Of a stretch of DNA of 64,000 nt, positions 12,210 through 41,590 are shown piece after piece (the stretch's first letter is position 1; every line of letters starts with the position of its first letter). The notes under the pieces are model-generated. The model was not told where the DNA came from and ran no database searches. It saw only the letters and a list, made by a program, of their open reading frames with translations. A program made the position numbers and the translations under genes. This DNA is from a virus: positions 1 to 64,000 of the IMG/VR virus record IMGVR_UViG_3300032893_000018. The stretch is one strand, 5' to 3'.

Positions 12210-13820
12210 ATGATGTCCCGCGGAATGAAGTTCGTTTCGAGGACCGCTGGGATCCGGGGGCGGACCCGCGGACGCGGGCGACGCGACGGCGCGTTCGAAT
12301 ACGTGCATCAGTCGGAGGTGCCGCGGCTCAAGTGGATCTCGCGGCGCGCGCTCGAGATCGTGACGGCCGACGTCGCGAAGGCGCGCGAGCTCATCATGGC
12401 GGGCGAGAAGATCGCCGAGCACGGTTACGAGGAAGACATCAAGCAAGTGCTCGCGGAGATGGCGGCGGCGGGCGTCGACATGGCGAGCGAGAAGGGGCTC
12501 GCGTGGCGTGGGCAGATCCTGCGGTCGCTCGGCTTCGCGCTCGATCTCGTGAAGGGCGAGCTGCAGTCGAGGCTGGAGGTGGACTGGTGGGCGACCGTGC
12601 TCGCGGAGATGGGGAACGACCCCGACCCGTCGTACACCGAGGACCAACGCGCGCTCATCGCGATCATCCGGAAGGAGCTCGACACGGCGCGCGCTACGGC
12701 GAACAACACTGTCGGGAGCGGGCAAGGCGTCGTCGACAAGTTCGTCGCGGTGAGCACGCAGCGCACGGGGGTGACGCCACACACGGTCGAGCGGCTCGAC
12801 ATGTACCAGCGCATGGGGGTCTACACGGAGCCCGCGCCGGACGACGACGAGGAGATGACGCACGAGAAGCTCGCAACGATGGCGGCCGAGTTTCCGGCGC
12901 TGAAGGCGGACGTCGCGCGGATCGCGCGCGAGGTGCCGACGCCGCCGCTCACGTCAGCGCAGAACGTGGAGGCCGCGCTGCAGGGGTTCGCGCACTTCTT
13001 CGGTTCGCTCGACGGGTTCGCGACCACGGATCGGCTCGGTAGCGTGCTCGCGGCGCTCGACAGCATGCAGGCGGCGGCCCGCGTGCGCACGTGCTTCGAG
13101 GAGCTCCTCGGGAAGAAGCTCGCGCACGGCGACAACCCGTCGCGCGACGCCGTGGTCTTCTCGCTCGCGTGGCGCGAGTGCGGGTTCGCGAAGCTCGAGA
13201 TCGGGCACAAGCTCGCCGCGAACCTGTGCCTGACCGACATCCCGGGCGACATGATGGTGCGGCACCCGTGGAAGGCGTGGTCGCTCGTCGTGCCCGACGG
13301 TCTCCTCGGCGACGTCGCGCGCGTGTGGGTGTGCGCCGAGCTCGACGCGAGGGACGTGATCGTCATCGACCGGCGCGGCGATCGCATGCGCGTCGACAAG
13401 GACTCGGAGCTCGCGAACATGATCACATCGCTCGTGCAGGGCGCCGCGCTCGCGCTCTCGAACCCGGACGACTTCAAGCGCGAGGTGCAGCACGGCGGTG
13501 GGGGTGTGCCGGGCACGTCACGGCGTCGCAAAGGCGGCGAGCCGGACTTCAATCAGGCGCGCTACATGCTGTCGGCGCCGGTGAAGATCGACATGCGTGA
13601 GCACGTGCACGCCGCGCTCGCGGGGCAACGTCGCGGCGGCGCACCGACGGTGCAGTTCCTCGTGCGCGGGCATTGGCGGAACCAGGCGCACGGCCCGAGG
13701 ATGTCACTCCGCCGGCAGCAGTGGATCCAGGCGTTTTGGAAGGGCCCGGAGGAGTCGGCGATCCTCCTCAGGAAGCACACGGTGGAAGATGAAAAAGAAG
13801 AAGACCCGAAGAAGGATTGA
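12210..13820 (+). CDS. Large hypothetical phage protein, 536 aa
   Basis: Helical N-terminal two thirds with no catalytic motif that I recognise. The C-terminal ~45 residues (VRGHWRNQAHGPRMSLRRQQWIQAFWKGPEE) match a conserved tail found in phage and mobile-element proteins of unknown function (pattern VRGHWR.Q..G.....R...I.P.W.GP). The start is ATG-ATG after a GGCAATAC element. It precedes the replication cluster and may be a regulator or nucleoid-type protein. Confidence 0.6.
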   Translation: MMSRGMKFVSRTAGIRGRTRGRGRRDGAFEYVHQSEVPRLKWISRRALEIVTADVAKARELIMAGEKIAEHGYEEDIKQVLAEMAAAGVDMASEKGLAWRGQILRSLGFALDLVKGELQSRLEVDWWATVLAEMGNDPDPSYTEDQRALIAIIRKELDTARATANNTVGSGQGVVDKFVAVSTQRTGVTPHTVERLDMYQRMGVYTEPAPDDDEEMTHEKLATMAAEFPALKADVARIAREVPTPPLTSAQNVEAALQGFAHFFGSLDGFATTDRLGSVLAALDSMQAAARVRTCFEELLGKKLAHGDNPSRDAVVFSLAWRECGFAKLEIGHKLAANLCLTDIPGDMMVRHPWKAWSLVVPDGLLGDVARVWVCAELDARDVIVIDRRGDRMRVDKDSELANMITSLVQGAALALSNPDDFKREVQHGGGGVPGTSRRRKGGEPDFNQARYMLSAPVKIDMREHVHAALAGQRRGGAPTVQFLVRGHWRNQAHGPRMSLRRQQWIQAFWKGPEESAILLRKHTVEDEKEEDPKKD

Positions 13821-23176: not shown

Positions 23177-23838
23177 GCTCGTTCGCGGATGAGCTCATGG
23201 CCTGCCGCTCGGGGGCGATCGACGTCCCCGAGCTTCTCCGCCGCACGGCGCCCGTGTGGCGGCGGTTCGCCCGATATCTCCTTCGCAAGTGGCGCGCCCC
23301 GCTCGGCGTCGACGAGGAGGACGTGGTGCAGGAGGTGCTCGCCGCGGGCATCCCGGCGATCAAGGCGTGGGACCCGTCACGCGGGCCCGCGATCGACGCA
23401 TACGTGCAGTTCCAGGCGCTCGACAAGGCGAAGAAGTGGCTGCACACGCAGCGCAAGGCGAAGCGGCGCGACGACTCGGCGCCGTCGCGCGCGCCGCTCA
23501 CGTACACGCAGCTCGGGCTCGAAACGGCGGCGGACATCGAGCGCGTGGAGTCGTTTCGCACGCCGTGGTCGGCGACGCCCGAGGAGGTGGCGACCGAGCG
23601 GGAGGCGATTGCCCGCGTGGCCGAGCAGCTCAGGGCGGAGGCGCAGCGGTTCGTGGGCGAGGACCGCGGCATCCTGACGGCGCTGGCCGATGCCCGCTTG
23701 TGCGTGGACGATGCGGCGGAGTCGCTTCCGCTCGACGTCAGGATCGGACTGAGGCTATCCAACGTCGACGGCGCGCGCGCGGTCGTCCGACGTGCGATCG
23801 ATCGACTGCGCGCATCAACAGGAGGATCCGCATCATGA
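23173..23838 (+). CDS. Sigma-70-like factor (region 2)
   Basis: 221 aa, GTG start in an overlap. Residues ~25-95 resemble sigma region 2: 'VWRRFARYLLRKWRAPLGVDEEDVVQEVLAAGIPAIKAWDPSRGPAIDAYVQFQALDKAKKWLHTQ' (helices 2.1-2.4, with DxxDvvQev and YvqFqAL). The C-terminal region-4 part is weak. Placed among replication genes, it could redirect host RNA polymerase to phage promoters, for example the GGCATNA elements seen before many genes. That link is inference. Confidence 0.6.
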   Translation: MSSFADELMACRSGAIDVPELLRRTAPVWRRFARYLLRKWRAPLGVDEEDVVQEVLAAGIPAIKAWDPSRGPAIDAYVQFQALDKAKKWLHTQRKAKRRDDSAPSRAPLTYTQLGLETAADIERVESFRTPWSATPEEVATEREAIARVAEQLRAEAQRFVGEDRGILTALADARLCVDDAAESLPLDVRIGLRLSNVDGARAVVRRAIDRLRASTGGSAS

Positions 23839-33645: not shown

Positions 33646-34197
33646 GTGCGCGCGCGGAAGCAGATCGACCCGTCGAAGGTGGTCGTGCTCGGCGTTGATC
33701 TGTCGCTCGCTGGCACAGGGCTCGTCGCGTTGCCCGCGACGTGGGGAGGCAAGTGGAAGCGCGTCGTAGTGCACACGGTGAAGATCCCGATCCCGACGCA
33801 TGCGACGGAGGGCGAGCGTGTCTCGCGGCTCGGCAAGATCGTGATGGAGGTGCTCGCGTTCGCACGCGACAACCGATGCACGCACGGCGTCGTGTTGAAC
33901 TACGCATTCAGCAAGTCGAACAAGGCGCACTGGCTCGGCGAGCTCGGCGGCGTCGTGAAGCTGATGATGCGCGACCACCGGGGACTGCTGCTGCAGCCGG
34001 TCGCCGAGAGCGCCGCTCGTTCGCTGATCGTCGGCAAGCTGCCCCGCGCCGACGTGAAGGTTCTCGTGCGCGCGGAGCTGACCCGGATGGGCATGCCCGC
34101 GGCGTGGTCGCTGGACGAGGGCGACGCGTTCGTCGCGGCGAACTGGGGGCTGTTCGAGTCGGGGGCCCCGGGGGCCCTGGTTCACGCCGCCGCGTGA
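33646..34197 (+). CDS. RuvC-like Holliday junction resolvase
   Basis: 183 aa, GTG start. An RNase H-like fold can be read: VVVLGVDLSLAGTG (first Asp, residue 17), 'GVVLNYAF', and C-terminal 'LDEGDAFVAANWG' (Asp). This is the RuvC/phage resolvase pattern, except that the second acidic residue (usually Glu at the end of strand 4) is not clear ('VVLNYAF'). Last gene of the recombination cluster. It would process junctions made by the recombinase. The promoter of the Cas12 gene starts 32 bases after it. Confidence 0.65.
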   Translation: MRARKQIDPSKVVVLGVDLSLAGTGLVALPATWGGKWKRVVVHTVKIPIPTHATEGERVSRLGKIVMEVLAFARDNRCTHGVVLNYAFSKSNKAHWLGELGGVVKLMMRDHRGLLLQPVAESAARSLIVGKLPRADVKVLVRAELTRMGMPAAWSLDEGDAFVAANWGLFESGAPGALVHAAA

Positions 34198-34229
34198 TTC
34201 CCGCGGGTTCGTGGCCCCGGCGGAAAAGG

Positions 34230-34259
34230 TTGCAATGATGGGCCATCATGGCCTATCCT
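34230..34259 (+). promoter_or_regulatory. Sigma70-like promoter with internal palindrome (Cas12 gene)
   Basis: TTGCAA, 18 bases, TATCCT. The spacer holds GGCCATCATGGCC (34241-34253), a perfect palindrome around one C. Same architecture as 21610-21638. An mRNA from here would start near 34266 and use the ATG at 34305. Confidence 0.65.
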
Positions 34260-34304
34260 TTGGGTGTCCGGTCGACGGTCGGCCGCAAAGGACATGGAGA
34301 TCAA

Positions 34305-35960
34305 ATGCTGACTCTTTCTCGACCAGCTCTGATCGAATCAGACGAAGAACGACTGTTGCGTGAGTGTGCCTCGGCGTGCTGGACCTATCACCGATTGCTC
34401 GACTTCGAGGAGCAGCACCAGCGTGTGCTCGACGAGGTCGCGAACACCATCGCCCCCGGCATCGTTAGAGTCGGTCGCATTCTTGCGCGGCTAGCGCGAC
34501 GAGCACGACGCGCGGAGCGCACGACGAAGGGGCAATGGGCGCCGAACCCGAGACCGGAACTCGCCGCCGGGTTGCGCCTGCGCTTGGACTCGATGCGCGC
34601 GGCGCGCAACGCAGATCCGCGTTGGGCCGTGGCGCTAGGCTGGGCCGACGAGCAAGTGGGAGAGCCGAAGTCCGTGCGTCGGCGTCGTGCGAAGCCCGTC
34701 GACAAGATCAAGCGTCGCAAGACGGAGACCGATGAAGCTTTTGCCAAGCGCCTCGCGCTGCTCTCGCAAGACGAGAGCGACGAGCACTACGCCAAAAAGC
34801 TCGAGGTCATTCCGCGAGACACTCGTCGCGACGCGTATCGCAAAGAGCTCTACGGGCAGCGCCGCATCTACTGGGGCACGTGGAACGCTCTCGTGCGGAG
34901 CGTCGACCAGGCGCGGAAGGACGTGATCGGCCAGCGTGCGCGAGGGATGCCGGCGGAGATCCGGCGCCCGAAGTTCCGCGACCCGGTTTCTCTTTCGGCG
35001 GACGCTGGCGGTTTCCGAATAGTCGAGCGCGGCTCGCCGTGGTGGACGCTGGAGCTCCGCATCGGGGTGAGCGACGGATGGGTCCGGTTCCGCGCAAAAT
35101 GCGGTAACTGGCACGCTGTCCCGGCGGACGCGGCGTTCCGCACGCTCAAGCTCACGCGGCGCAGGGATGGTGAGCGCTGGACGTATTCGGTGAGCCTAAC
35201 GATCGACATGGAAAAGTCGACGGCGCAGCGAGCAGAGTCGCGGGTCGTAGCGTTCGACTGGGGCCACCGTGAGCACGGGCATGACCGAGCATCCGATGGG
35301 ATCCGGGTTTTCACATGGCTCGGCGACGATGGCGAGCAAGGCGAAGTTCTGATCCCATCCGAGTGTCGCGCCGCCCTCGACGAGATCGACGGGCTGAAGA
35401 GCCGCCTGGACACGACCTACGATGCGAGACGGACGACGCTCGCTCGCCTTCATCGAAACAGGTACCTGTATCGGCGCGCGCTGATGCGGTCCGGCGTGCG
35501 GACCGCTGAGGAAACGGACTGGCTCCGATGGGAGATGCGGTACGAGCGTCGAATCATGGCGCGGCGAAAGAGGATCGTGAACCTCCGTCGAGAGATCTAC
35601 CTCACTGCCGTCCGGGAGCTGCGGGCCCGCTACGCGATCTTCGCGTTCGAGGCCGAGTCGGTACCGCAGATCAAGAAGAAGCAGAAGGACGAGGAGCGGA
35701 AACGTCGGCAGCGGAGCAACCGCGACCTCGCGGCGAGGTACGAGTTCACTTCGATTTGCGAGCGGTCAGGTGCCACGATTATCTCGGTACCCGCTCGCAA
35801 ATCGACGAAGGAGTGTCCAGATTGCGGGCAACTCACCGAAAACGGTCCTGAATTGCTCATTGCCTGCCCGGGTTGTGGGCGTATTCGGGACAAGGACCGA
35901 GGTGCGTCACGTGTCATCCTGGGCCGGGCGAAGGAGGCGCTCGCAAACCGTGCTGCATGA
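34305..35960 (+). CDS. Compact Cas12/TnpB-superfamily CRISPR nuclease
   Basis: 551 aa from ATG 34305 (GGAG five bases upstream). The in-frame ATG at 34248 lies inside the promoter. RuvC-I: D318 in VVAFDWGHREHG. RuvC-II: E449 in IFAFEAES. A Cys4 zinc finger (C504, C507, C521, C524: CPDCG...CPGCG) is followed by RuvC-III (D529/D531 in RDKDRGASRVIL, where most relatives have D.NAA). A Lys/Arg bridge (QIKKKQKDEERKRRQR) lies between. The segment after RuvC-I (DGIRVFTWLGDDG..GEVLIP) recalls small type V-U/Cas12m-like proteins, but I cannot assign a subtype. No Cas1, Cas2 or Cas4 nearby; a CRISPR array starts 32 bases downstream. Confidence 0.85.
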   Translation: MLTLSRPALIESDEERLLRECASACWTYHRLLDFEEQHQRVLDEVANTIAPGIVRVGRILARLARRARRAERTTKGQWAPNPRPELAAGLRLRLDSMRAARNADPRWAVALGWADEQVGEPKSVRRRRAKPVDKIKRRKTETDEAFAKRLALLSQDESDEHYAKKLEVIPRDTRRDAYRKELYGQRRIYWGTWNALVRSVDQARKDVIGQRARGMPAEIRRPKFRDPVSLSADAGGFRIVERGSPWWTLELRIGVSDGWVRFRAKCGNWHAVPADAAFRTLKLTRRRDGERWTYSVSLTIDMEKSTAQRAESRVVAFDWGHREHGHDRASDGIRVFTWLGDDGEQGEVLIPSECRAALDEIDGLKSRLDTTYDARRTTLARLHRNRYLYRRALMRSGVRTAEETDWLRWEMRYERRIMARRKRIVNLRREIYLTAVRELRARYAIFAFEAESVPQIKKKQKDEERKRRQRSNRDLAARYEFTSICERSGATIISVPARKSTKECPDCGQLTENGPELLIACPGCGRIRDKDRGASRVILGRAKEALANRAA

Positions 35961-35991
35961 ATCCGAGATCATTGGGGTCGTCCGGATGTCC

Positions 35992-37076
35992 CCATCAACA
36001 GCCGCGCGAGGCTTCGAGTATCGCGACAGCATGAACACCGACGGTGTTGCGACGTTCGAGCCGTCCATCAACAGCCGCGCGAGGCTTCGAGTATCGCGAC
36101 CCCGAGCACGACGAGAACTCGTCGGGCCATCAACAGCCGCGCGAGGCTTCGAGTATCGCGACGACCGATGACGGCGAGGCAGTTGTCGCGCCCGACGAAC
36201 CATCAACAGCCGCGCGAGGCTTCGAGTATCGCGACAGCTCTCCGAGTACCCCACGTCTTGGGACTTCTACGAATCCATCAACAGCCGCGCGAGGCTTCGA
36301 GTATCGCGACGCGTCGCTGCGGCGTCGGCGGGTCACGCGAGCTCCCCCATCAACAGCCGCGCGAGGCTTCGAGTATCGCGACAAGACCCGGCGAACCCCA
36401 CCGGCAACGACCTGTCCGCCATCAACAGCCGCGCGAGGCTTCGAGTATCGCGACAAGTAGAACACGATCGCTCCGACCACGGTCACGACGAGCTGCCATC
36501 AACAGCCGCGCGAGGCTTCGAGTATCGCGACGCATCAAAGAGCGTGAGTGGTACGGGGCCGTCGATCGCGGGCCATCAACAGCCGCGCGAGGCTTCGAGT
36601 ATCGCGACATGTTCTCGACCCTTTCGACCTGCTCGCGTCCCGCCCCATGCCGCCATCAACAGCCGCGCGAGGCTTCGAGTATCGCGACGCGGCACGCCTC
36701 CGGGACATCGCGGACCGCGCGCCGCCATCAACAGCCGCGCGAGGCTTCTTCGAGTATCGCGACGAGTCGGCACTGCACCGCGCGCCGCACGAGGTCGGCC
36801 ATCAACAGCCGCGAAGGGCTTCGAATACTTCGACCGTCGAGCACGCGGACCGGTCTCCCGCCATCAACAGCCGCGAAGGGCTTCGAATACTTCGACCATG
36901 GACGATCCGGGAGCGAGCGGCGGCGTACGCACACAAATAACAGCCGCGACGGGCTTCGAATACTTCGACCCCCACACGAGCAGCCATCAATAGCCGCGAA
37001 GGGCTTCGAATACTTCGACCGGTGGTAGCTGCCTGCCGCTTTATCAACAGCTGCTAGGGGCTTCGAGTACCTAGAC
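35992..37076 (+). CRISPR. CRISPR array, 16 repeats, 15 spacers
   Basis: 36-nt repeats begin CCATCAACAGCCGCG and end in a hairpin plus AC. Repeats start at 35992, 36065, 36127, 36200, 36275, 36347, 36419, 36496, 36573, 36653, 36725 (39 nt, TTC inserted in the loop), 36799, 36861, 36934, 36984 and 37041. The first 11 have stem CGCGA/TCGCG. Repeats 12, 13 and 15 have CGAAG/CTTCG. Repeat 14 has one mismatch. Repeat 16 has CTAGG/CCTAG. Spacers are 37, 26, 37, 39, 36, 36, 41, 41, 44, 36, 35, 26, 37, 14 and 21 nt. Conserved repeats lie next to the nuclease gene, so the leader side is probably there. Open frames through the array are repeat artefacts. Confidence 0.95.
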
Positions 37077-37146
37077 GAGAGGATGTAGATGCGCGGCAAT
37101 AACGGGCGATGGCAAAGCGAAAGCTCCGAGGCAAGCTGAAAAAACT

Positions 37147-37479
37147 TTGGACCACGAGCGGCAAGCACATCAATTCCAATTCGACGAGTTCTCCGAACGG
37201 GAGCGCAAGCTCAACGAGCTGCCCATGCACGTGAAGGTGCTGCAGAAGGCTCTCGGCGAAGCGCATCAGGAGATCGCGAAGCTTCGTCGTGTAGCGGACA
37301 AGAACAAATTCAGATTCGATGACGACGAGGACAGGGTGGGCGAAGTCGTGAACCAGGTCACGATGTATTTAGCGGCCATTGGTGCTCGCGTGAATTTGGA
37401 GGTCGAATTCGCCTCGGGGCGCAGGAACTCCTTCGAACTGCAAAACAGCCTCCTGCGCGATTTCTTGGGGATTCGATGA
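37147..37479 (+). CDS. Coiled-coil protein next to CRISPR array, 110 aa
   Basis: TTG start; no ATG or GTG is available in this frame. Residues ~1-50 form a charged helix (FSERERKLNELPMHVKVLQKALGEAHQEIAKLRRVADKN). The rest is helix-strand (VNQVTMYLAAIGARVNLEVEFASG). Not a known Cas protein. It lies between array end and orphan repeat. A 42-codon ORF (MAKRKLRGKLKKL, from 37109) overlaps in the +1 register upstream across AAAAAAC and could be its true N-terminus if a -1 slip or sequencing error exists. Confidence 0.5.
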   Translation: MDHERQAHQFQFDEFSERERKLNELPMHVKVLQKALGEAHQEIAKLRRVADKNKFRFDDDEDRVGEVVNQVTMYLAAIGARVNLEVEFASGRRNSFELQNSLLRDFLGIR

Positions 37480-37697
37480 GAGGATGCGCGAACGCCCAAC
37501 AGCCGCGAAGGGCTTCGAATACTTTGACGGTCGTGCTCTCCCCGAAGAACGCGGAGCCGGAGCTTCGCGCGGGCATCGACAACGCGCGGCGCGCGGCGCA
37601 GGCCGCGGCGGCGTCCGGGGACGTGCGCCGCGCGATCCGGTACCTCGCCGACGCCGAGTGCCTGGAGCGCGCGCTCGCCCGCGCGACCCGGAGATGA
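37476..37697 (+). CDS. Small protein whose 5' end contains a CRISPR repeat, 73 aa
   Basis: ATG 37476 overlaps the previous stop (ATGA). Codons ~7-18 are the orphan CRISPR repeat. Alternative starts TTG 37523 or GTG 37532 would place the repeat in the leader instead. The C-terminal 55 residues (VVLSPKNAEPELRAGIDNARRAAQAAAASGDVRRAIRYLADAECLERALARATRR) are an alpha-helical hairpin of TPR-like composition. Coupled by ATGA to the next gene. Function unknown. Confidence 0.5.
   Translation: MRGCANAQQPRRASNTLTVVLSPKNAEPELRAGIDNARRAAQAAAASGDVRRAIRYLADAECLERALARATRR
37493..37528 (+). repeat. Orphan CRISPR repeat
   Basis: Matches the CGAAG/CTTCG repeat version from CAACAGCCGCGAAGGGC onward, ending ACTTTGAC, so the stem closes with one G-U pair. 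416 bases beyond the last array repeat, separated from it by the 37147 gene. Confidence 0.85.
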
Positions 37698-37954
37698 CGC
37701 ACGCGGAGCGCCGGATGGCCCTGTGGCTCGCGCACCTGTACGAGGTCGAAGGCGACCGCTTCGAACACGGCGACGAACCGTGGTTGGTCCGATACGAGCG
37801 CGTCGTGCCCGACCTGCGCGAGGCGGGGCGCTGCTACGAGGCAGCGACGCGGATGAACGAGCGCGGGATGGGGGGGATCCCATTCGGGCACGATCTCGAA
37901 GAACTTCACGAGCGGGCGATGGACGCCTTCGCGCCAATGGACTGTGACGAGTAG
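37694..37954 (+). CDS. Hypothetical protein, 86 aa
   Basis: ATGA overlap. Helical, acidic (MTHAERRMALWLAHLYEVEGDRFEHGDEPWLVRYERVVPDLREAGRCYEAATRMNERG). No family recognised. Last of three coupled small genes after the CRISPR island. Confidence 0.55.
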   Translation: MTHAERRMALWLAHLYEVEGDRFEHGDEPWLVRYERVVPDLREAGRCYEAATRMNERGMGGIPFGHDLEELHERAMDAFAPMDCDE

Positions 37955-37988
37955 TGAATGGCATCCTCCTCGCCGGAGGATCTGATCG

Positions 37989-38690
37989 ATGACGAGGAAA
38001 ACGAAGGCGCCACTCCGCGCGCCTGATGCGTTCTTGGAGTATCCCACGGTGCTCCTCTCCCGGTTGAAGGAGGACCCGAAGAACCCGCGCGTGATCACGA
38101 ACGCGGAGCTCGAGATCCTGGAGCGGTCGATGTTCGAGTTCGGGTTCGTCGAACCGGTCGTCGCGAGACCGAGCGATGGCTTGATCATGGGAGGGCACCA
38201 GCGGCGCCGCGCGTACCTCGCGCTCTATCCGAAGTTGAAGCTGTTGATTCAGTTCACCGTCAGGATCAGCGGCGGCACTATCACCGACGAAGACTTCGGC
38301 GCTCCGCGCGCGCCGGTGATGTGGCGCGAACTCGACGACCAACGCGCGCGCATGTTGAACCTCGCCCTGAATCGGATCGGCGGGACATGGGACGCTGATA
38401 AGCTGCCGCAATTGATCGAGTCGCTCACGACGCAGATGCCGCTAGAGGCGTTGATGGTCACGGGGTTCACCGCTGCCGAGCTGACCGACTTCGCCGATCT
38501 CGCGAGTAACCCGGTGGTGACGACCGGTGACGCACCGGTCTCGACGCCGCGGGCGCCGCACTTGTCGTTTGACTTCAGCAGCGAGAAGAAGCGCGATGCC
38601 GTGAAGCGGTTCATCGCTGCGCGTGTCGAGAAAGGTAAGAAGACCGAGCTCGGTGGTGACCTGCTCGCGAAGCTCCTGGGTGTGCGATGA
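37989..38690 (+). CDS. ParB/sulfiredoxin-fold DNA-binding protein
   Basis: 233 aa. The ParB N-domain reads 'LLSRLKEDPKNPRVITNAELEILERSMFEFGFVEPVVARPSDGLIMGGHQRRRAYLAL': box I (NPR), and GGHQRR for the G-E/Q-R-R nucleotide-binding box. The central helical region (RMLNLALNRIGGTWDADKLPQLI) is as in phage ParB-like proteins. No ParA is in the window. It might bind the dispersed 19-bp palindromes, or act with the DNA methylase at 42253 as ParB-like proteins often do. Both are inference. Confidence 0.8.
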   Translation: MTRKTKAPLRAPDAFLEYPTVLLSRLKEDPKNPRVITNAELEILERSMFEFGFVEPVVARPSDGLIMGGHQRRRAYLALYPKLKLLIQFTVRISGGTITDEDFGAPRAPVMWRELDDQRARMLNLALNRIGGTWDADKLPQLIESLTTQMPLEALMVTGFTAAELTDFADLASNPVVTTGDAPVSTPRAPHLSFDFSSEKKRDAVKRFIAARVEKGKKTELGGDLLAKLLGVR

Positions 38691-39536: not shown

Positions 39537-39684
39537 CTACGCGCCGCCGTCGCCGATGGGCCGCGTCGTGCGCATGCGATGCGAGCGGTGTGGGGCGTCG
39601 CGGGCGGTCGTGTGCACGTCGAACGCGCCGCGCTCCCACATCGTGAGGTTTGCGATCGAGCACGCCGGTTGCGCGGCGGCATGA
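39451..39684 (+). CDS. Small protein with CxxC, 77 aa
   Basis: The ATG has GGAGGGA upstream. Overlaps the previous gene by 86 bases. 'MRCERCGASRAVVCTSNAPRSHIVRFAIEHAGC' provides Cys/His ligands for a probable zinc site. Function unknown. Confidence 0.5.
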   Translation: MPTEPRPVESIPPGWREWSPPATPHVRASYAPPSPMGRVVRMRCERCGASRAVVCTSNAPRSHIVRFAIEHAGCAAA

Positions 39685-39691
39685 ACGCGCG

Positions 39692-41590
39692 ATGACCTAC
39701 GTCGCGGATGTCCTCGGGGACGGCGGGCTGATGGCGCGAGCGCGCAAGGATTACGCCGCGCGGCCCGGGCAGATCGAGATGGCGGAAGCGGTCGACGCGG
39801 CGATGCGCGATGGCGCGCGCCTGCTCGTCGAGGGACCGACGGGCACGGGCAAGTCGCTCGCGTACCTCGTGCCGGCGCTGTGGCGCGCGGTGCACGAGGG
39901 GAAGAAGTGCGTCGTCGTGACGGGGTCGATCCCGCTCCAGGAGCAGCTCAGCCGGAAGGACCTGCCGATGCTCGCCGCGGTGCTGCCGTGGAAGTTCGAG
40001 CACGCGATGCTGAAGGGGATCTCGAACTACCTGTGTCTGCTCGCGCAGGAGGAGGCCGGCACGGACGCCACCATGCTGCGCCCGCTCGACGCGCTGGCGT
40101 CGTGGGCGTCGTCGACGACGACGGGCGACTTCTCCGAGCTGGAGGAAGAGCTCGAGCCGGAGGTGCGGGGAAAGCTGACGACGACGTCGGAGGATTGCCT
40201 CGGGCAGCGCTGCCCGAGAGCGGCCGAGTGCCACGTGCTCAGGGGCCGCGCGATCGCTGCCCGCGCGCACGTCGTTGTGACGAACTACCATCTGTTCTTC
40301 GCTGACCTCGTGCTTCGCCGCGAGATCGGAAAGGGGATCCTCCCGGACTACTCGAACGTCGTGTTCGACGAGGGGCACCAGGCGGCGGAGATCGCGCGCG
40401 CGTTCTTCGGGTTCAAGCTGACGCCGTTTGCGATCCGGCGATGGTCGAAGCGGCTCATGCCGATCGACTCGCGCTTGCACGATCGACTCGTCGGCGCGTC
40501 CGATCGGTTCTTCGCGGCGCTCGCCGAGTACCGGGCGTCGGACTCGTACAAGGCGCGGCTCCTGGAGCACGACCCGGTCGACTGGGAGCCGCTGTGGCAC
40601 GACCTCCGCGCGGCGGAGAAGAAGCTCTCGGACGCCGCGAAGAACGAGCCGGATCCGGCGAGGTCGAAGAAGATCATGTCGGCGGCGGGCTCCGCCGCGA
40701 GCGCCGCTACGATCGTTTCCACGTCGATGCGTCAGACCGAGGACGGCATCGTGTATCACGTCGACGTGGAGGGTCAGGGCCGCGTCGCGCTGTGCGGGCA
40801 GCCGCTCGACGTGTCGCGGAAGCTCCGTGAGTGGATCTTCGCTCATCCCGCGGTCTCGTCCATGGTCGTCGCGTCCGCGACCCTGACGGCGGCCGGTAGC
40901 TTCGAGATGGTCGAGCGCGAGCTCGGCGCCGACGGCGCGCGAAAGCTCGAGGTCGAGTCCCCGTTCGACTGGGCATCGCAGTCGATGGTCGTTGTTCCTC
41001 CCGGCTTGCCGAACCCGACCGAGCGCACGTTCCAGGCGGCCGCGTGCGCCGCGTTCGTCGACGCTGTGCGCGCGGCGCGCGGGCGCACGCTCGGGCTGTT
41101 CACGAGCCGGCGGATGATGGAGGCGGCGGCGGCCGCGCTCCGCGAAGCGCGGCTCGGGTTCGCCGTCATGTGCCAGGGCGAAGCGCCGCGGATGAAACTC
41201 GTCGAGCGGTTCCGCGCCGACGTGAGCTCCGTCCTGATCGGCACGTCGTCCTTGTGGGAGGGCGTCGACGTGCCGGGCGAGGCGCTCTCGTGCGTCGTGA
41301 TCGACCGCCTGCCGTTCGATTCGCCCGACGATCCGATCTCGGACGCGATGAACGAGCGCCGCCGCGACGCGTTCAAGAAGTGGATGCTGCCGCGTGCGAT
41401 CCTCGGCTTTCGCCAGGGGACGGGGCGGCTCATCCGGTCGGTGACCGACCGGGGCGTCATCGTGGTGCTCGACCGCCGGCTCGTCGAGAAGCCCTACGGC
41501 AAGTCGTTCCTGCGCGGGCTGCCGCTCGGCGTGCCGCTCGTTCGGGGAGAGGCCGCGTGGGAGAAGACGATCGCGGACTTCCTCCGATGA
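39692..41590 (+). CDS. DinG/XPD-like SF2 helicase with Fe-S cluster domain
   Basis: 632 aa. Walker A EGPTGTGKS (~48-56), Cys set in 'EDCLGQRCPRAAECHVL' (~168-185), which fits the XPD/DinG 4Fe-4S domain (a fourth Cys is less clear), FDEGHQ as motif II (DEAH variant), 'GTSSLWEGVDVPG' (motif V) and QGTGRLIRS (motif VI). 5'-3' helicase acting on R-loops or damaged forks. The ATG follows GGCATGAA. It starts a unit with the two small genes downstream. Confidence 0.85.
   Translation: MTYVADVLGDGGLMARARKDYAARPGQIEMAEAVDAAMRDGARLLVEGPTGTGKSLAYLVPALWRAVHEGKKCVVVTGSIPLQEQLSRKDLPMLAAVLPWKFEHAMLKGISNYLCLLAQEEAGTDATMLRPLDALASWASSTTTGDFSELEEELEPEVRGKLTTTSEDCLGQRCPRAAECHVLRGRAIAARAHVVVTNYHLFFADLVLRREIGKGILPDYSNVVFDEGHQAAEIARAFFGFKLTPFAIRRWSKRLMPIDSRLHDRLVGASDRFFAALAEYRASDSYKARLLEHDPVDWEPLWHDLRAAEKKLSDAAKNEPDPARSKKIMSAAGSAASAATIVSTSMRQTEDGIVYHVDVEGQGRVALCGQPLDVSRKLREWIFAHPAVSSMVVASATLTAAGSFEMVERELGADGARKLEVESPFDWASQSMVVVPPGLPNPTERTFQAAACAAFVDAVRAARGRTLGLFTSRRMMEAAAAALREARLGFAVMCQGEAPRMKLVERFRADVSSVLIGTSSLWEGVDVPGEALSCVVIDRLPFDSPDDPISDAMNERRRDAFKKWMLPRAILGFRQGTGRLIRSVTDRGVIVVLDRRLVEKPYGKSFLRGLPLGVPLVRGEAAWEKTIADFLR

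Follow-up and report, generated by a model that had tools for sequence, protein, structure and literature searches.

Type V-M CRISPR systems, the pseudoknot handle of their crRNAs and their occurrence on plasmids and prophages are already known. Repeats within one CRISPR array are normally near-identical, so that selection on single repeats is invisible in them. Between organisms, compensatory changes and G-U pairs keep the stem within repeat families, and the repeats of one array are generally identical (Kunin et al. 2007, PMC1896005). The cryo-EM structure of Cas12m2 shows crRNA nucleotides C-22 to C-17 paired with G-8 to G-3, and G-23 with A-2 non-canonically (PMC10442227). The crRNA of GoCas12m combines a triplex with a pseudoknot, and the Cas12m of Meiothermus silvanus processes pre-crRNA and does not cut DNA (PMC11013384). 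In published tests Cas12m proteins with D-E-D, H-D-D or N-D-D triads gave no DNA cleavage, and interference is by binding.

The window, by which we mean the whole 64,000-nt stretch of DNA that was analysed, is part of a 93,897-nt record of a virus that infects bacteria. Phage terminase, DNA helicase, SbcCD-like proteins and a RuvC-like resolvase are encoded near its CRISPR locus. A gene for a DinG-like DNA helicase also lies nearby (39650-41590) and is probably unrelated; DinG is also a component of type IV-A systems.

We assigned the effector gene upstream of the array by several routes. Its probable start is at 34305 (MLTLSRP...), a start common to three related phages, which gives a protein of 551 amino acids. 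The RuvC triad is D-E-D and intact in alignments (D337, E468 and D550 in the 570-aa numbering), and a zinc finger lies at the C-terminus. PADLOC assigns the protein to Cas12u1 (1.6e-35), and its Pfam match is Cas12f1-like_TNB (2.1e-7). With a profile of 17 relatives, the sequences of five Cas12m structures all ranked first (8.8e-114 to 1.5e-57), with near-full-length matches to 23vw (8.8e-114), 23vu, 8pm4, 8hio and 8hhl. An AlphaFold model from four sequences was poor (pLDDT 51), while 17 sequences made the C-terminal half usable. Foldseek and VIA-align searches with this model, which is confident in its C-terminal half only and low in its N-terminal half (mean pLDDT 62.6), gave Cas12m chains as the best four matches (8pm4, 8hhl, 8hhm and 8hio; Z 17.6-19.6). 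By sequence the effector is thus a Cas12m of subtype V-M, homologous over its length and nearest to Cas12m among the Cas12 subtypes, although the phage effectors share only about 20% identity with characterised Cas12m proteins. Cas12f and TnpB were considered and rejected, since both fell below Cas12m in profile, sequence and fold searches; for TnpB, the NCBIfam score of 31.5 stayed below the cut-off of 100.

The array starts 31 nt past the cas12m stop codon on the same strand (Table 1). Seventeen repeats lie at 35992-37528, 16 of them in the array (35992-37076) and one as an orphan 416 nt away from repeat 16. All are 36 nt long except repeat 11 (39 nt). Spacers 1-13 measure 26-44 nt; the next two are shorter, with 14 nt following repeat 14 and 21 nt following repeat 15. 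The ORF between repeat 16 and the orphan had no match in a family search and has no known relatives; its presence may have split the array. The repeats have a polarity, with identical copies adjoining cas12m and diverged copies at the far end. An Rfam search of 34000-38500 gave no matches.

Table 1. Coordinates of the V-M locus in the window and of features in related records (window coordinates unless a record is named).
Feature	Coordinates	Strand	Details	Basis
cas12m (type V-M effector)	34248..35960	+	570 codons	PADLOC, Pfam, profile and structure matches
Repeats 1-11	35992..36763	+	arms CGCGA/TCGCG; spacers 26-44 nt	sequence and register
S1 helix in repeat 1	36000-36003 (AGCC) with 36010-36013 (GGCT)	+	register identical in all repeats	
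Pseudoknot helix in repeat 1	36005-36009 (CGCGA) with 36021-36025 (TCGCG)	+	the hairpin of the initial annotation	
Repeat 11			extra TTC (3 nt) in loop L3 only	
Repeats 12-15	36799..37019	+	arms CGAAG/CTTCG in 12, 13 and 15 (starts 36799, 36861, 36984)	
Repeat 14	36934-36969	+	arms CGACG/CTTCG, one C.U mismatch; followed by the 14-nt spacer	
Repeat 16	37041..37076	+	arms CTAGG/CCTAG; first helix AGCU/GGCU with one U.G pair	
ORF, 110 aa	37147..37479	+	between repeat 16 and the orphan repeat	
Orphan repeat 17	37493..37528	+	arms CGAAG/CTTTG (RNA CUUUG), one G.U; both helices intact	
G002 (L003) repeats outside the array, 5' ends	3814, 49736, 49823, 49888, 52488, 69527	-	record coordinates	
G002 (L003) repeat outside the array, 5' end	12444	+	record coordinates	
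D12-class DNA adenine methylase, L003	7832-8662			
D12-class DNA adenine methylase, L004	9302-10120			
D12-class DNA adenine methylase, L002	9723-10559			
D12-class DNA adenine methylase, L043	5511-6386			

The initial annotation had described three matched arm types in the array, an orphan repeat that keeps pairing with one G-U and a 3-nt insertion confined to the loop of repeat 11. All of these are borne out by the sequence, except that the matched set passes over repeat 14, where one pair is broken by a mismatch. The annotation had also read the arms as a single hairpin. The helix of positions 14-18 with 30-34 is real, but a second helix, S1, pairs positions 9-12 with 19-22 (AGCC/GGCT), and since the two cross, the repeat forms an H-type pseudoknot with an AC tail. 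A stem and a pseudoknot that end in AC, with both helices co-varying, are as in V-M crRNAs. A plain hairpin is rejected because S1 crosses helix 14-18/30-34 and itself co-varies. We also discarded a hairpin of 23-27 with 31-35, which nearest-neighbour folding favours in repeats 12-15 but which is absent from repeat 1 and from the related array G003. A covariation of positions 27 and 31 was seen in the window only and did not recur elsewhere.

Within the window, any two arm versions differ by two to three double changes; taken over all versions, both sides change in four of the five pairs. When the 3' arms of the window array alone were shuffled as blocks, the result was modest (p = 0.034), because the array really has three arm types.

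A scan of viral contigs for the effector yielded three related phages, 60-75% identical: G001 (L002), G002 (L003) and G003 (L004). A genome scan with the window protein as query found nothing. Among INPHARED phages the effector search gave no relative, and neither the window array nor the G003 array had a match. G001 carries two intact repeats and one truncated repeat. The array of G002 is near-uniform, lies about 25 kb from its own cas12m and has a mostly regular period of 71-75 nt. The single array of G003 has 37 recognisable repeats, and the 36 that are not truncated comprise 33 versions. G002 also carries seven repeats outside its main array, on both strands and all with pairable pseudoknots, one of which overlaps the cas12m stop codon; these may be solitary guide RNA units. 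In three phages and on a plasmid of A. silvanus, the V-M array is followed by a gene for a D12-class DNA adenine methylase; in one of the three phages a few genes intervene.

Only once these relatives were added did the matched changes become overwhelming evidence. We combined 50 distinct repeats from the four phages, giving 450 cells. Standard pairs fill 98.9% of these cells against 90.2% after shuffling, and 54 cells are changed on both sides against a shuffled mean of 13.7; neither value was reached in any of 500 shuffles, where the counts are of sequences and not of independent events. Changes on both sides occur at six pairs, namely all five pseudoknot pairs and 12-19 of S1, which appears as C-G, U-A and U-G. 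The comparison with related phages' arrays that the initial annotation had proposed thus extends the co-variation to every pair of its helix. The pseudoknot helix is paired in 98.4% of cells and S1, whose positions are invariant or co-vary, in 99.5%. Sliding the arms by one to three columns lowers pairing to 30-46%. Mutual information calculated on the full set with no prior structure ranked 16-32, 17-31 and 15-33 at the top, with 12-19 and 18-30 close behind. In G003 alone, 33 repeats are 98.7% paired and 25 cells are double-changed against 6.6 in shuffles (0 of 500 reach this). A complete pseudoknot helix is kept in 31 of the 33 versions, compared with a shuffled mean of 21.3 and a maximum of 26.

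The pairing was not imposed by the repeat search, since the search columns left out positions 15-19 and 28-33. Unrelated viral contigs with the same 21-nt motif, which make up most of the contigs bearing it, form no helix, so the motif does not carry the pairing along.

These counts bear on the possibility that the distal repeats are simply dead, with random differences and with pairing by chance or as a leftover. The irregular distal spacers (14 and 21 nt), the broken repeat 14 and the truncated units in G001 and G003 would fit such decay. Changes on both sides nevertheless lie far above the shuffles, which refute decay as a general account, and in the window the helix changes are concentrated and matched, the loop is fixed and the orphan keeps both helices. 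We therefore consider plain decay very improbable, although it may apply to single units such as repeat 14, whose 14-nt spacer is shorter than the published 17-bp Cas12m2 heteroduplex. Base pairing alone cannot separate RNA from DNA, and the helices could instead reflect a cruciform or recombination signal at the DNA level. G-U and U-G pairs are repeatedly tolerated, as fits RNA, the same fold occurs in Cas12m crRNA structures, and a self-crossing fold is unlike a cruciform; a DNA-level structure is hardly credible.

We then considered where in the repeat the changes fall. With the array consensus as reference, the pseudoknot helix in the window has 0.20 changes per site, the loop at 23-29 has 0.048 and the first helix 0.021. 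Positions 1-6, the free 5' flank, are as variable as the pseudoknot helix (0.222). Unpaired sites that differ as often as paired ones, which the initial annotation had named as an argument against the hairpin, are thus found in the flank but not in the loop. Loop positions C24, G25 and A26 and the terminal A35 and C36 are near-fixed across the repeats. In the Cas12m2 structure the protein contacts the pseudoknot and stem through the sugar-phosphate backbone, and certain bases of the loop and the 3' end directly (PMC10442227), a division that fits the pattern of constraint in the phage repeats. Recognition by shape, as first suggested for the hairpin, is thereby supported, and the pseudoknot helix is probably recognised mainly in this way. 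The handle would then be read by shape in the pseudoknot helix and by sequence at AGC/GCT of the first helix, the CGA loop and the AC tail.

How the versions arose is clearest in G003. Of its changes, 25 are double and matched, 15 are single and leave the bases paired, with G-U intermediates seen, and four break a pair. The many versions, small steps and G-U intermediates clearly favour drift under selection in this array, in line with the drift under structural selection that had been proposed for the window. Selection is incomplete, since pairing is broken in repeat 14 and in a few repeats of G003. The window's own arm types are separated by jumps of two to three double changes with intermediates absent, so that stepwise drift is not directly shown there.

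These jumps, and the arrangement of the versions in blocks (1-11, 12-15 and 16), would also be expected if recombination had built the window array from those of related phages or plasmids with V-M systems, the matched changes having arisen between lineages. Recombination does appear to act within arrays, since a 39-nt stretch of repeat and spacer occurs twice in G003. Assembly from related arrays had been offered at the outset, and it is possible for the three blocks of the window. Yet a search of the motif-bearing viral contigs and the three related phages turned up no donor repeat whose arms are CGAAG or CTAGG, and recombination leaves G003 unexplained, with its 33 versions, small steps and G-U intermediates. 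We regard such a patchwork origin as unlikely. The G003 duplication itself consists of a half-repeat and spacer (L004 7595-7633 and 8569-8607) beside a broken repeat and is a sign of in-array recombination.

The blocks could alternatively be a dated record, in which the cas12m-proximal repeat evolved slowly while structural selection acted on it, and whatever version it had reached was copied whenever spacers were acquired in a burst. The polarity of the window fits this, with identical copies beside cas12m and diverged ones at the far end, as does the near-uniform array of G002 with its mostly regular 71-75 nt period. G003 does not, because its versions are interleaved, and divergence neither rises nor falls along the array. 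This origin, too, seems doubtful to us.

We consider it probable, with good confidence, that in this phage V-M system stranded crRNA units drift singly in the absence of repeat-copying adaptation, while Cas12m binding keeps the fold. A Cas1 search gave no match in the four phage records, whereas 9 of 14 control genomes gave one; the phage records may not be complete, and an adaptation gene of the phage could lie outside them. If it has no adaptation genes of its own, the system would not refresh its repeats, which would drift under selection for Cas12m binding that keeps the two helices. In such a system cas12m and the array would probably be co-transcribed, with the pseudoknot as the handle gripped by Cas12m and each guide made of one repeat and its downstream spacer. 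Cas12m would trim the crRNA and block transcription at DNA that matches the guide. Without a phage cas1 the repeats would not be continually re-copied from one template and would drift individually. Mutations that break the handle would either be lost or be compensated by a second change at the partner position, often by way of a G-U pair, leaving the array as a set of guide RNAs that are each kept functional. The identical block of repeats 1-11 would represent recent acquisition, perhaps by host Cas1-Cas2 in trans, a route that has been described for type IV systems of plasmids (PMC11656645).

The spacers offer some hints of targets. Window spacers showed no convincing match to the four phage genomes. 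For two of them, viral contigs were searched for exact 20-mers; one spacer had no match and the other had one of 21 nt. This match spans 36383-36403, from the first nucleotide of the spacer that follows repeat 6, and corresponds to positions 12628-12648 of viral contig L069, where the frame reads KDPANPT; it could be due to chance. A G002 spacer (23553-23587 of the L029 record) matches the primase/helicase-like gene of its own phage (L028 9760-9794) at 32 of 35 nt. This match, with its three mismatches, suggests an origin in a related, competing phage.

We next turned to further V-M arrays, taken from Cas12m loci of plasmids and genomes and from additional viral contigs; the 14 bacterial loci were obtained with an alignment that took in plasmid Cas12m proteins. 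These arrays have the same architecture, with a first loop of 2 nt. Mixed repeats recur among them: all eight differ on A. silvanus pMESIL02 (L043), and there are five versions in eight repeats in a Nitrospirae MAG, three in five on a Methylomonas plasmid and three in three in a Deltaproteobacterial MAG, with further mixtures in viral contigs L066 and L067. The array of a Pelobacter plasmid has a uniform 28-nt core. Matched double changes within a single array were found in the window, G003, A. silvanus and Methylomonas. On the Methylomonas plasmid AACCC/GGGTT becomes AAGCC/GGCTT, and on the A. silvanus plasmid CTCAG/CTGAG becomes CCCGG/GCGGG. The A. silvanus mixture is not an assembly artefact, as the plasmid is a complete isolate sequence.

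Tentatively, the V-M arrays of phages and plasmids might be seen less as a growing memory than as a small family of guide RNA genes, each selected on its own. Such units would drift, scatter over the genome as solitary copies of repeat and guide, like the seven outside the G002 array, and persist because the guide is used, for instance to silence genes of competing phages. Arrays with many versions amount to natural mutagenesis experiments on the handle and supply a list of natural Cas12m handle variants. Old crRNA units are apparently still under selection, which makes the use of old spacers in phage systems without adaptation testable.

In the open-access literature searched, we found no report of compensatory handle evolution inside single arrays. 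The closest structural parallel to the phage system is Cas12m2 (PDB 8hhl, 8hhm and 8hio; PMC10442227), which shares a compact effector, a single crRNA and a handle of 36 nt that derives from the repeat and stacks a pseudoknot on the stem. The two effectors are about 20% identical and differ in their triads (D-E-D in the phage, H-D-D in Cas12m2), and the phage system has a 5-bp pseudoknot helix, a first loop of 1 nt and many repeat versions per array. Meiothermus (Allomeiothermus) silvanus pMESIL02 resembles the phages in its V-M effector, its eight repeats, all different and with matched changes in both helices, and a DNA adenine methylase gene after the array. Unlike the phage loci, it is a plasmid of a cultured bacterium, and its first loop is 2 nt. 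The phage repeats differ from the families of Kunin et al. 2007 in folding as a pseudoknot and in changing within single arrays. Earlier examples of repeats that have diverged or stand alone away from a normal array, and that serve in regulation or competition, are CreTA and other ectopic degenerate repeats (PMC9458426) and the single repeat units and mini-arrays of phages (PMC11656645). In contrast to CreTA and the mini-arrays, the diverged phage repeats described here lie mainly in the array of their own effector and retain a complete handle.
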